Source: Phycisphaerales bacterium (lineage in GTDB: Bacteria > Planctomycetota > Phycisphaerae > Phycisphaerales > SM1A02). From it: 57,454 bases of DNA. A model generated the notes under the pieces. The model was not told where the DNA came from. It did no database searches and saw only the letters and a list, made by a program, of their open reading frames with translations. Location: contig SIAR01000013.1 in the NCBI GenBank assembly GCA_009691705.1, forward strand, positions 1 through 57,454, given 5' to 3'. Position numbers and translations under genes: made by a program. Of the stretch, positions 40,861-42,611 are shown in pieces (the first letter of the stretch is position 1; every line of letters starts with the position of its first letter).

Positions 40861-41265
40861 ATGCCGCACGAGAACGCACCACGCAAAGACAGTTCGAAGA
40901 AGTCAGCAGATGAATCGGTCGTTGATCGTCGTCTTGGCGTCGACCGGCGCGATATTGATCCTGCGTCGCCGACAAACCTTGAGCGGCGGCGTGGTCCTGG
41001 TCGGCGACTCACCGACTTTGTGAAGTCGGCTGAAGAAGGAGAGATGTCGCGCGAGCAATACACCTTCTTGTTGGCGATCGACGCCTTCAAGCGAGTCAAT
41101 CACAAGACATTCCCGAGTTGGACCGACGTTCTCGAGGTCGTGCGCAAGCTCGGATACCGGAAGACTATGCCATCAGAGCTGAACCTAGGTGGCAAGGCCC
41201 AAGATTGGACCGAAAAGCCAGAATCAATCAGTGGCGTCAACAAGCCGTCGACTGAGGCAGACTGA
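40861..41265 (+). CDS. small basic hypothetical protein
   Basis: This 134-residue cytoplasmic protein has a clear Shine-Dalgarno (AAGGAA, 7 nt before ATG). The N-terminal third is charged and Arg-rich (VVDRRLGVDRRDIDPASP, then LERRRGPGRRLTDFVKSA). A compact helical part follows (SREQYTFLLAIDAFKRVNHKTFPSWTDVLEVVRKLGYRK, split here into two helices). The start of that part looks like a small DNA- or RNA-binding fold, but I know no family for it. Confidence 0.65.
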   Translation: MPHENAPRKDSSKKSADESVVDRRLGVDRRDIDPASPTNLERRRGPGRRLTDFVKSAEEGEMSREQYTFLLAIDAFKRVNHKTFPSWTDVLEVVRKLGYRKTMPSELNLGGKAQDWTEKPESISGVNKPSTEAD

Positions 41266-41335: not shown

Positions 41336-41596
41336 CTACTTCTTGAACCAGTTTGCGTTGATCTCGATGTACTTGTGCCACTCGGCGGGCAGGTCATCCT
41401 TTGGAAAGATCGCCTGCACTGGACACTCGTCAACACACAAACCGCAATCGATGCACGTCTCAGGATCTATGTAGAGCTGCTCAACTTTTTGATAGCCATC
41501 ACCCTTCTTCGTTGGGTGGATGCAATCAACGGGACAGACTTCAATACACGAGGCATCTTTTGTCCCGATACATGGTTCAGCAATGATGTGAGGCAT
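41336..41596 (-). CDS. fdxA: seven-iron-type ferredoxin
   Basis: This 86-residue ferredoxin has Cys 9, 17, 21 and 25 in a CIGTKDASCIEVCPVDC pattern, as in FdxA, where the usual second Cys of the first motif is replaced (here Thr 12). That suits a 3Fe-4S cluster. A second motif CIDCGLCVDECP holds a 4Fe-4S cluster. It carries electrons in the cytoplasm. TAGTAT on the minus strand lies 9 nt before the ATG, so transcription may start next to it, separate from the tiny gene upstream. Confidence 0.92.
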   Translation of the reverse strand: MPHIIAEPCIGTKDASCIEVCPVDCIHPTKKGDGYQKVEQLYIDPETCIDCGLCVDECPVQAIFPKDDLPAEWHKYIEINANWFKK

Positions 41597-41642
41597 AGTC
41601 GAAAAATACTAGCAAACAGCGGGAAAAATTGGTCCAAAACGC

Positions 41643-41673
41643 ACCGGAAGCCGGCACAAGGCCGGCTTCCGGT
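41643..41673 (-). terminator. strong hairpin after the tiny Lys/Ala ORF
   Basis: ACCGGAAGCCGGC (41643-41655) and GCCGGCTTCCGGT (41661-41673) are perfect 13-bp arms with a 5-nt loop (ACAAG). On the minus strand it begins 23 nt after the stop of the 18-codon ORF and is followed by GCGTTTTGG, a short T-rich part. It is most likely an intrinsic terminator or a stable RNA 3' end. It would isolate the tiny gene from fdxA. Confidence 0.7.
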
Positions 41674-41696
41674 ACAAAACATTCTGTCTGTGCGAC

Positions 41697-41753
41697 TTAC
41701 CGGCTCTTCTTAGCCTTCTTCGCAGCCTTCTTAGCAGCTTTCTTCTTTGCCAT
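41697..41753 (-). CDS. 18-residue Lys/Ala-rich peptide gene
   Basis: The ATG at 41753 opens a reading of 18 codons: MAKKKAAKKAAKKAKKSR, with nine Lys and six Ala. A Shine-Dalgarno AAAGGA (41764-41769) lies 10 nt before it. The sequence looks like the Lys/Ala tails of histone H1-like proteins, so the peptide would be strongly positive and may bind nucleic acid. Eight of nine Lys codons are AAG. A 13-bp hairpin follows the stop. Upstream lie two interleaved inverted repeats that end one base before the Shine-Dalgarno. The alternatives are a leader peptide or a structural RNA with a chance ORF. Dedicated signals on both sides argue for a real unit. Confidence 0.6.
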   Translation of the reverse strand: MAKKKAAKKAAKKAKKSR

Positions 41754-41770
41754 GGTATGGGCATCCTTTA

Positions 41771-41824
41771 GTTACGCTGTTGCGTCGGAGAGAGTGCTCG
41801 CTAGCGTAACGAGGGCGAGCACTC
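41771..41824 (-). promoter_or_regulatory. candidate H-type pseudoknot in the leader of the tiny gene
   Basis: Read on the minus strand: GAGTGCTCGC (41824-41815), 4 nt, GTTACGCT (41810-41803), 1 nt, GCGAGCACTC (41801-41792), 13 nt, AGCGTAAC (41778-41771). The first and third parts pair perfectly (10 bp), as do the second and fourth (8 bp). The order is that of an H-type pseudoknot. Loop lengths of 4, 1 and 13 nt are workable. The last paired base is one nucleotide before AAAGGA. As DNA the same arms are overlapping dyads and could instead be a protein site in the dapB divergent promoter region. Confidence 0.55.
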
Positions 41825-41861
41825 AGGAACAATCAACACTGTTATCGACTGTTCGTGATCG

Positions 41862-41907
41862 GGACTTGACACCATGATTCCACAATCACCCCCTATCTGT
41901 CAAGTCC
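41862..41907. promoter_or_regulatory. dyad around the dapB start
   Basis: GGACTTGACA (41862-41871) and TGTCAAGTCC (41898-41907) are perfect 10-bp arms with a 26-nt spacer that contains the dapB ATG. Each arm contains TTGACA on one strand, a -35 consensus, so the arms may be promoter parts for both directions or an operator. Folded as RNA it would place the start codon in a loop. Confidence 0.4.
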
Positions 41908-42611
41908 ACCCACTAAAAATTTGTCTCTTCGGGTCATCTGGACGAATGGGACAGCGCATCGAAGAGGCGTCGAAGCAATCAAATGAGAATGCGACGATCA
42001 CACTTCGACCCACGCGCGATGAGCATGCGATCGATGCATCACAACCCTTCAATGTGATTGTCGATTTCTCATCCGAAGGTGGGACAAAGTCAGCTGCAGC
42101 ACTCGCGATCGCGTCCAAATGTGCGCTACTTGTTGGCACGACAGGGCTCAGCGCAGCCACACACGCCATCCTGAAGAGCGCATCAATGAATGTCGCGGTG
42201 TTGAAGGCCCCCAACACGTCGATTGGCATCATTGTGATGCGTGCGCTCATCGCCGATGCAGCCCGAATGCTCGGAAGCGACTTCAAGATATCAATCACCG
42301 AGGTTCATCACACAAAAAAACTCGATCGCCCCTCTGGCACAGCACTTGCGCTCGCCGATGCCGTTGCGCGCGGGCGCGGTGAACCACCCGATCAATCACA
42401 GATTCATTCGATTCGCACCGGCGATGTGGTGGGTGATCACGATGTCGTCTTCACCAGCGAAAACGAAGTCGTCACACTGCGCCACCATGCCAAAAACCGC
42501 GATCTTTTCGCCGTAGGAGCCATTCGTCTGGCTCATTGGATCGCCAGACAGCCGGTCGGCATGTATGGTCTGGACGATTTGTTCAACGACCGCAAGGAAG
42601 CAGCGAAGTGA
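41874..42611 (+). CDS. dapB: 4-hydroxy-tetrahydrodipicolinate reductase
   Basis: This 245-residue enzyme of the lysine and diaminopimelate pathway reduces the dipicolinate precursor with NAD(P)H. The nucleotide-binding start KICLFGSSGRMGQRI is at about 15-29, FSSEGGTKSA near 65, GTTGLS near 90, and the active-site motif HHTKKLDRPSGTAL near 145. GHDVVFTSENEVVTLRHHA-type sequence completes the family pattern. The stop overlaps the GTG of the second M16 gene (GTGA). The promoter region is shared with the Lys/Ala peptide gene on the other strand. Confidence 0.94.
   Translation: MIPQSPPICQVHPLKICLFGSSGRMGQRIEEASKQSNENATITLRPTRDEHAIDASQPFNVIVDFSSEGGTKSAAALAIASKCALLVGTTGLSAATHAILKSASMNVAVLKAPNTSIGIIVMRALIADAARMLGSDFKISITEVHHTKKLDRPSGTALALADAVARGRGEPPDQSQIHSIRTGDVVGDHDVVFTSENEVVTLRHHAKNRDLFAVGAIRLAHWIARQPVGMYGLDDLFNDRKEAAK

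Follow-up and report, generated by a model that had tools for sequence, protein, structure and literature searches.

A short Lys-rich gene on the minus strand of a 57,454-nt stretch of DNA from a Phycisphaerales bacterium (hereafter, the window) is preceded by a leader whose two interleaved helices are maintained by compensatory changes among relatives. We consider it probable, at about 0.6, that this leader would act in cis as an H-type pseudoknot controlling the translation start of a basic mini-protein. The structure, as traced by compensatory change, its linkage to one gene, its single copy and its fixed distance to the ATG were computed; we infer that the gene is transcribed, that the knot forms in vivo, that it controls translation and that the product feeds back on it.

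Layout of the locus and its neighbours

Along the minus strand (41824-41643, 5' to 3'), helices A and B interleave in the order A-B-A'-B', followed by a Shine-Dalgarno sequence (SD), an ORF for MAKKKAAKKAAKKAKKSR and a 13-bp hairpin (Table 1), and the pseudoknot of the window has loops of 4, 1 and 13 nt. The two stems, the loops, the SD, the ORF and the hairpin are all present where a preliminary description of this DNA had placed them. That description also spoke of a strong terminator, which is apt for the perfect 13-bp hairpin but less so for the short T-run that follows it (GCGTTTTGG); the structure is better described as a strong hairpin with a modest U-tract.

Table 1. Features of the locus, with positions in the window and the basis of each assignment.
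Feature	Positions	Strand	Basis
Helix A, 5' arm	41815..41824	-	perfect 10 bp; family covariation
Helix A, 3' arm	41792..41801	-	perfect 10 bp; family covariation
Helix B, 5' arm GTTACGCT	41803..41810	-	8 bp; compensatory changes
Helix B, 3' arm AGCGTAAC, 1 nt 5' of the Shine-Dalgarno	41771..41778	-	8 bp; distance to ATG conserved
Loop 3 of the pseudoknot, with CUCCGAC	41779..41791	-	CUCCGAC in 80/80 aligned leaders
Shine-Dalgarno AAAGGA	41764..41769	-	sequence; conserved in alignments
ORF MAKKKAAKKAAKKAKKSR including stop, ATG 41753-41751	41697..41753	-	Lys-rich ORF at the same position in 80/80 aligned loci
Terminator-like hairpin, 13 bp, 5-nt loop	41643..41673	-	perfect stem; starts 23 nt past the stop
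-35-like element GTCAAG (divergent promoter)	41865..41870	-	-35-like string in 77/77 upstream regions
-10-like element GATAAC, 18 nt from the -35-like element	41841..41846	-	CGAT/CGAA block in 77/77
FdxA-like ferredoxin, downstream neighbour	41336..41596	-	Fer4 domains; NCBIfam FdxA families below cut-offs
dapB, divergent neighbour	41874..42611	+	TIGR00036 above cut-off

The interleaved repeats had been considered hard to explain by chance, and the counts bear this out. The window contains a single pair of interleaved perfect stems of at least 10 and at least 8 bp within a span of up to 60 nt, and no such pair appeared in 100 dinucleotide-preserving shuffles of the whole window, which rules out chance palindromes. 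Likewise, the 207-nt stretch 41836-41630 is more stable than its shuffles (z -3.7; 0 of 200 as stable), and its best fold contains helix A and the terminal hairpin and lacks helix B. In a rough energy count, made of the stacking of A and B plus a pseudoknot penalty of 9.6 kcal/mol and omitting other helices on the knot side, the knot comes out ahead of the best nested fold in just 8 of 79 leaders; folding energy is thus no proof that A and B coexist. Their coexistence would follow instead from the geometry of the loops and from covariation. ARAGORN found no tRNA or tmRNA in the window, and we discarded these candidates.

A -35-like string lies 14-21 nt 5' of a CGAT/CGAA block in all 77 distinct upstream regions when a permissive expression (eight alternatives, no shuffled control) is used, and in 58 of them with a stricter one. 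The block itself was present in 77/77; other genera add a second conserved block, of the GTACAA or GTATAAC type, which leaves the exact -10 uncertain. At the other end of the gene, 17 loci of the same genus have the terminal hairpin with a perfect stem, which measures 13-14 bp in 15 of them and 9 bp in the other two (L009 and L015); L006 shows a compensatory change.

Of the 77 aligned loci that extend a further 600 nt upstream, 73 have a divergent dapB there; of the 66 that extend a further 1,200 nt downstream, 65 carry the ferredoxin gene on the same strand. The leader is kept where dapB (4/77) or the ferredoxin (1/66) is not recognised, and locus L191 retains both leader and ORF with no ferredoxin downstream. 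Since it persists without either neighbour, the leader is linked to the Lys-rich gene and not to them. A plus-strand dapB leader or a DNA operator was rejected because the distance to the minus-strand ATG is conserved, because the four loci lacking a recognisable divergent dapB keep the leader, and because on the plus strand the loops would be of 13, 1 and 4 nt, leaving 4 nt to cross the 8-bp helix.

Two other features of this neighbourhood were observed. Positions 41862-41907 of the window hold a perfect 10-bp inverted repeat, GGACTTGACA/TGTCAAGTCC, with arms 26 nt apart, which covers both the start predicted for dapB and the -35-like element that serves the Lys-rich gene and is perhaps a shared operator or a pair of promoters. 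Adjoining the ferredoxin gene, a plus-strand ORF of 134 aa (40861-41265), ca. 60-90% identical in related loci where found, is a conserved unnamed protein, with no Pfam family above cut-off.

Distribution and compensatory change of the leader

The DNA of the window matches 29 of the 61 genomes searched, its own included. Matches outside the genus are short and fall mostly on the Lys-rich ORF. Within the genus, 16 of the 18 other genomes match; the remaining two (G004 and G017) have no dapB match and only weak, partial ferredoxin matches, so the absence of the locus is probably an assembly gap. In the alignment of loci from the same genus, the promoter-like block, helices, loop, SD, ORF and hairpin are conserved, and the flanks vary.

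A scan of 84,980 species genomes for the exact pattern of the helix B arms plus CTCCGAC, leaving helix A unconstrained, retrieved 74 stretches. In 70 of them ATGGC and a Lys-rich frame come 15-20 nt after the pattern (a few share one genome, and some frames are truncated at contig ends); the other four are unrelated. Of these 70, 53 are labelled as planctomycetes, 15 carry no taxon label and two, labelled Chitinophaga and Limnohabitans, look mis-titled. The same pattern yielded no matches in viral contigs, and we therefore rejected a presence in viruses.

The preliminary description had proposed to search relatives with a covariance model, and one built from 34 leaders matched at least 81 of 151 genomes of the family, in 21 of 45 genera; 79 of the 81 have it at a single place. 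Eight of these belong to a deep-branching type (L184-L190 and L194; four genera; E from 1.9e-4 to 0.0099), leaving 73; from its sequence, we read this type as having a separate 5' hairpin in place of the interleaved arms. Among 251 genomes of the order at least 57 matched, two of them outside the family, both weakly and with no Lys-rich ORF nearby (L192 and L193). Among 392 genomes of the phylum at least eight matched, again with two weak ones outside the family, and loci L245 and L246, which are weak matches outside the family, had no Lys-rich ORF. The counts from these three sets are lower bounds, as stricter filters apply above 40 genomes.

A weak model match was also seen at L247 (near 1501-1600), in the distant phylum genome G655, where a loosely similar leader, containing CTTCCGACACCCAAGCGTT and AAGGAG, lies ahead of a Gly/Lys repeat ORF; this may be a chance match. 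In nine loci (L067, L094, L095, L123, L132, L133, L173, L185 and L190) the contig ends near the leader or the Lys-rich gene, within ca. 200 nt; assemblies thus often break there, perhaps through repeats or strain variation in that gene.

For the analysis of pairing we selected 80 leaders (79 distinct) from 211 loci, leaving out the deep type, the unrelated L192 and L193, the knotless L022, L024 and L026-L030, four chance matches and duplicates. In this set, 84.5% of cells pair, as opposed to 70.3% after shuffling, and the covariation score is 0.349 against 0.131 ± 0.009 (0 of 500 shuffles as high), falling to 0.104 or less when partners are slid by 1-3 columns. Less telling is how many pairs show any double change (12, as opposed to 10.2 in shuffles, 28 of 500 as high). 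Double changes occur at all of the outer eight pairs of helix A, with 74% of cells paired, and the inner two have 68% paired, so the helix is imperfect; the alignment was fitted to the structure of helix A, and these counts lean towards it.

Helix A was also evaluated independently of that alignment, in 54 distinct leaders, with loci dropped if they lay less than 25 nt from a contig end or lacked ATGGC downstream; the exact pattern does not fix this helix. Its summed score was 1151, against 722 ± 27 when arms were dealt among leaders, and the highest of 20,000 re-dealings reached 835. Taken singly, 78% of the leaders exceed the 95th percentile of their letter shuffles, and about a fifth are unremarkable.

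Helix B requires more caution, because the pattern fixed both it and CUCCGAC in 39 of the 80 leaders, whose columns are conserved by selection and uninformative on B. In the other 41, found by DNA similarity or with model R1, itself partly built on pattern loci, all 284 scorable cells pair, with 22 double-change cells at three of seven pairs. In a quickly built tree of dapB, which covers 73 of the 80 loci and leaves 29 of its 69 inner branches open, the nine types of helix B, one of them a gapped row (L191), change at least ten times, and GCTACGC/GCGTAGC appears in two separate starred clades; other restored forms are GGTACGC/GCGTACC, GTTGCGC/GCGCAAC and GTCACGC/GCGTGAC. The family thus has interleaved A-B-A'-B' helices with compensatory changes in both.

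Taking helix A as the best-scoring stem of each leader, 78 of 79 leaders have an inter-helix loop of 0-2 nt, and likewise 78 have 1-5 nt in loop 1; loop 3 measures 11-21 nt in all 79. These lengths fit a stacked H-type pseudoknot. From the end of the aligned helix B to the ATG there are 16-22 nt in all 80 leaders, and 16-19 nt in 73. The leader lies upstream of one homologous gene on the same strand, both in the 70 of 74 pattern matches and in all 80 aligned loci. The compensatory changes that had been anticipated in both stems were found (eight outer pairs of helix A, three of seven pairs of helix B), as was the Lys-rich ORF, which stands behind 80 of 80 aligned leaders; the opposite outcome, that relatives would keep neither stems nor ORF, did not occur.

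CUCCGAC is present in the 80 aligned leaders, including the 41 in which it was free to vary. We also read, by eye and with a stem search, 26 distinct knotless leaders, of which 19 are from the family and seven from other families of the order. CUCCGAC occurs in 16/19 and 1/7 of these, respectively, and CUCC in 17/19 and 7/7. For instance, in L054, L214 and L228, all from the family, the motif sits inside a plain stem, often preceded by a separate hairpin of the GGCGG/CCGCC type, enclosing stems having been scored with no chance control; no enclosing stem was seen in L213 and L223, and L217 and L222 lack CUCC. Because knotless leaders keep the motif, its presence next to the SD would seem to be the older feature, with the interleaved helix A added later. 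A switch in which CUCC acts as an anti-SD was rejected: the genus of the window has GGAA or GGAT as SD while keeping CUCC, and nested ensembles pair CUCC with the SD ca. 7% of the time on average.

The Lys-rich gene

Where the contig allows their full reading, the proteins behind the 80 aligned leaders range from 7 to 161 aa; all are of Lys-rich low complexity, with at least 40% Lys plus Arg. This H1-like composition does not by itself make them members of the histone H1-like proteins (Hc1, Hc2). Within the genus, the ORF has 16-19 residues and its length differs by whole codons; among the eleven eighteen-residue ORFs only 4 of 54 sites vary, three of them silent third positions. Judged by these sequence patterns, the ORF is genuine; its 18-residue product may bind DNA or RNA. 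The gene had been called stand-alone, which is true of the ORF itself, although that ORF stands at the lower end of the size range of a broader group of Lys/Ala/Thr/Arg repeat proteins. Likewise, of the two readings first offered, a small regulated gene is supported, and a structured RNA that carries a tiny ORF is disfavoured, since ORFs in the same place reach 161 aa and their length changes by whole codons.

Four Lys-rich relatives (23-89 aa) retrieved no NCBIfam family at E up to 1 and nothing above cut-off in Pfam, whose one match, NNH2, was far below it (E 0.21); these searches require at least 20 residues, more than the 18-mer has. Behind the 26 knotless leaders, the ORFs are of 28-172 aa. 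Of 19 further loci that were read, 15 have a Lys-rich ORF close to this ferredoxin gene; among them are L225, L229 and L230, from other families of the order, where it is a Lys/Thr/Ala repeat gene. The pair formed by the Lys-rich and ferredoxin genes may be older than the pseudoknot.

What the leader may control

As we picture it, the minus-strand mRNA would be short, roughly 200 nt, and probably monocistronic. Its 5' leader would fold into an H-type pseudoknot with helix A (ca. 10 bp) stacked on helix B (7-8 bp), the CUCCGAC loop running along helix A and the knot ending at the SD of the Lys/Ala-rich gene. To load at this site, a 30S subunit requires the RNA that helix B and the loop take up, and the knot would therefore be placed to control initiation, setting it in cis: stabilising the knot would turn the gene down, and opening it would turn it up. 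One place per genome, the link to one gene and persistence in the absence of the neighbours together indicate that control is most likely in cis, on this gene. The deep-branching family members with a separate 5' hairpin count against this explanation.

By analogy with the T4 gene 32 leader, the highly basic product itself, which is the simplest input, would be the foremost candidate for what acts on the knot, a feedback step that we put forward tentatively. Somewhat more doubtful is the whole idea of a dedicated pseudoknot RNA that gauges how much there is of its own product, a polycationic microprotein with as few as 16-18 residues. Should it hold, a minimal histone-like protein would be under cis-RNA feedback that is kept in about half of the sampled genomes of the family, the protein having become very short in many of them. 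Peptides so basic bind nucleic acids with little specificity, which counts against feedback. So does L198 (near 2174, plus strand), with an intact leader and a restored helix B ahead of an ORF of only seven residues (MAAKKKK), odd if the product is what is sensed; two relatives from its genus have Lys-rich ORFs of 27 and 30 residues.

Control of this general kind has precedents. In T4, gp32 recognises a pseudoknot 5' of its own ribosome-binding site and represses its own translation (PMC535899). The gene 32 operator resembles our leader in placing a knot 5' of the ribosome-binding site of a gene whose product binds nucleic acids, binding being presumed in our case. It differs in sequence and host, and the T4 knot (PMC535899) is followed by more than 40 nt of less structured RNA, whereas the knot described here ends 1 nt before the SD. 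The leaders of S15, in E. coli and other bacteria, are similarly structured at the ribosome site of a small RNA-binding protein, and are structurally diverse among phyla and sometimes knotted (PMC4137082). In contrast, the product studied here, a low-complexity repeat of Lys and Ala, reaches the cut-off of no family, ribosomal-protein families included, and its leader has no Rfam match. In the PVC group, PMC4355289, PMC3469542 and PMC8343073 describe the post-transcriptional control of a small basic DNA-binding protein, the histone-like HctA of chlamydiae, by the sRNA IhtA; that RNA acts in trans, unlike the cis-acting leader proposed here, and the proteins are likened here by description.

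Against control by the knot, it might be a constitutive 5' cap with no sensor role, guarding a short, strongly expressed mRNA against decay or keeping the ribosome site open for a protein that would be needed in bulk. The conserved promoter-like block immediately upstream, which would put the knot near the 5' end of the RNA, is consistent with such a cap, as are the single gene and copy and the freedom of the helix A sequence to vary while pairing holds. However, the conserved CUCCGAC and a helix B of restricted sequence resemble a recognition site, beyond what a stability clamp needs, and a knot that abuts the SD is awkward for an enhancer. We regard the cap as unlikely, if worth keeping in mind.

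The knot might instead bind a metabolite, such as lysine or a polyamine, and gate the SD. The preQ1 and SAM-II riboswitches are compact H-type pseudoknots adjoining the SD. For preQ1, this arrangement is set out in PMC11625349. Our leader shares with them the position next to the SD and a conserved loop, and the lysine-pathway gene dapB is its divergent neighbour in most loci. Yet it matches no riboswitch family in Rfam, it is tied to one gene in one bacterial family, with one place per genome in nearly all matching genomes, and there is no convincing match outside that family; a small-molecule riboswitch thus appears quite improbable. Helices A and B could also be alternative hairpins of a two-state switch and never form one pseudoknot, and indeed the two compete in nested folding: the best nested fold keeps at least 70% of A in 44 of 79 leaders and of B in 25. 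A switch has no need of the tight inter-helix loop and loop 1 seen in 78 of 79 leaders each, and in the window neither helix overlaps the SD, so that a swap would not obviously gate it; we hold this to be very improbable. Least credible is a functional noncoding RNA whose ORF is incidental, or a Lys-codon attenuator peptide acting on the ferredoxin gene, as a short Lys-codon-rich ORF, a terminator-like hairpin and a ferredoxin gene in succession on one strand might suggest. Against both, ORFs in the same place reach 161 aa with in-frame indels, ferredoxin does not belong to the lysine pathway, and in L191 the leader and ORF persist with no ferredoxin gene downstream.

We return to the preferred reading, a cis-acting pseudoknot at the start of the Lys-rich gene, to consider its novelty. 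Knotted leaders of genes for nucleic-acid-binding proteins are a known kind. The preliminary description knew of no family with this arrangement, and we found none in Rfam 15, which at gathering scores gave no matches in the window or in 20 relatives; at an E-value cut of 10, the only match within 41600-41920 was of the terminal hairpin to DnaX (E 8.7). Likewise, among the open-licence PMC papers listed by our searches, none describes the leader or the gene. The Rhodopirellula-1 motif (Weinberg 2010), from Planctomycetes and Proteobacteria, is tabulated as ambiguous as RNA and probably cis-regulatory (PMC2864571); in 392 genomes of the phylum, our model gave weak matches in two out-of-family genomes. 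With Rhodopirellula-1 considered by its table description, we regard this RNA family as new to the sources searched, together with its CUCCGAC loop motif and the microprotein that is its target.

In all, our results define a well-supported RNA family with an obvious linked gene, in planctomycetes that are represented here mainly by metagenome-assembled genomes. They also point to a conserved, uncharacterised Lys-rich repeat protein that is shortened to 16-19 residues in the genus of the window. If the leader senses its product, this would be a very small feedback circuit, and it would offer a means of studying how these bacteria adjust their quantity of a polycation that coats nucleic acids.
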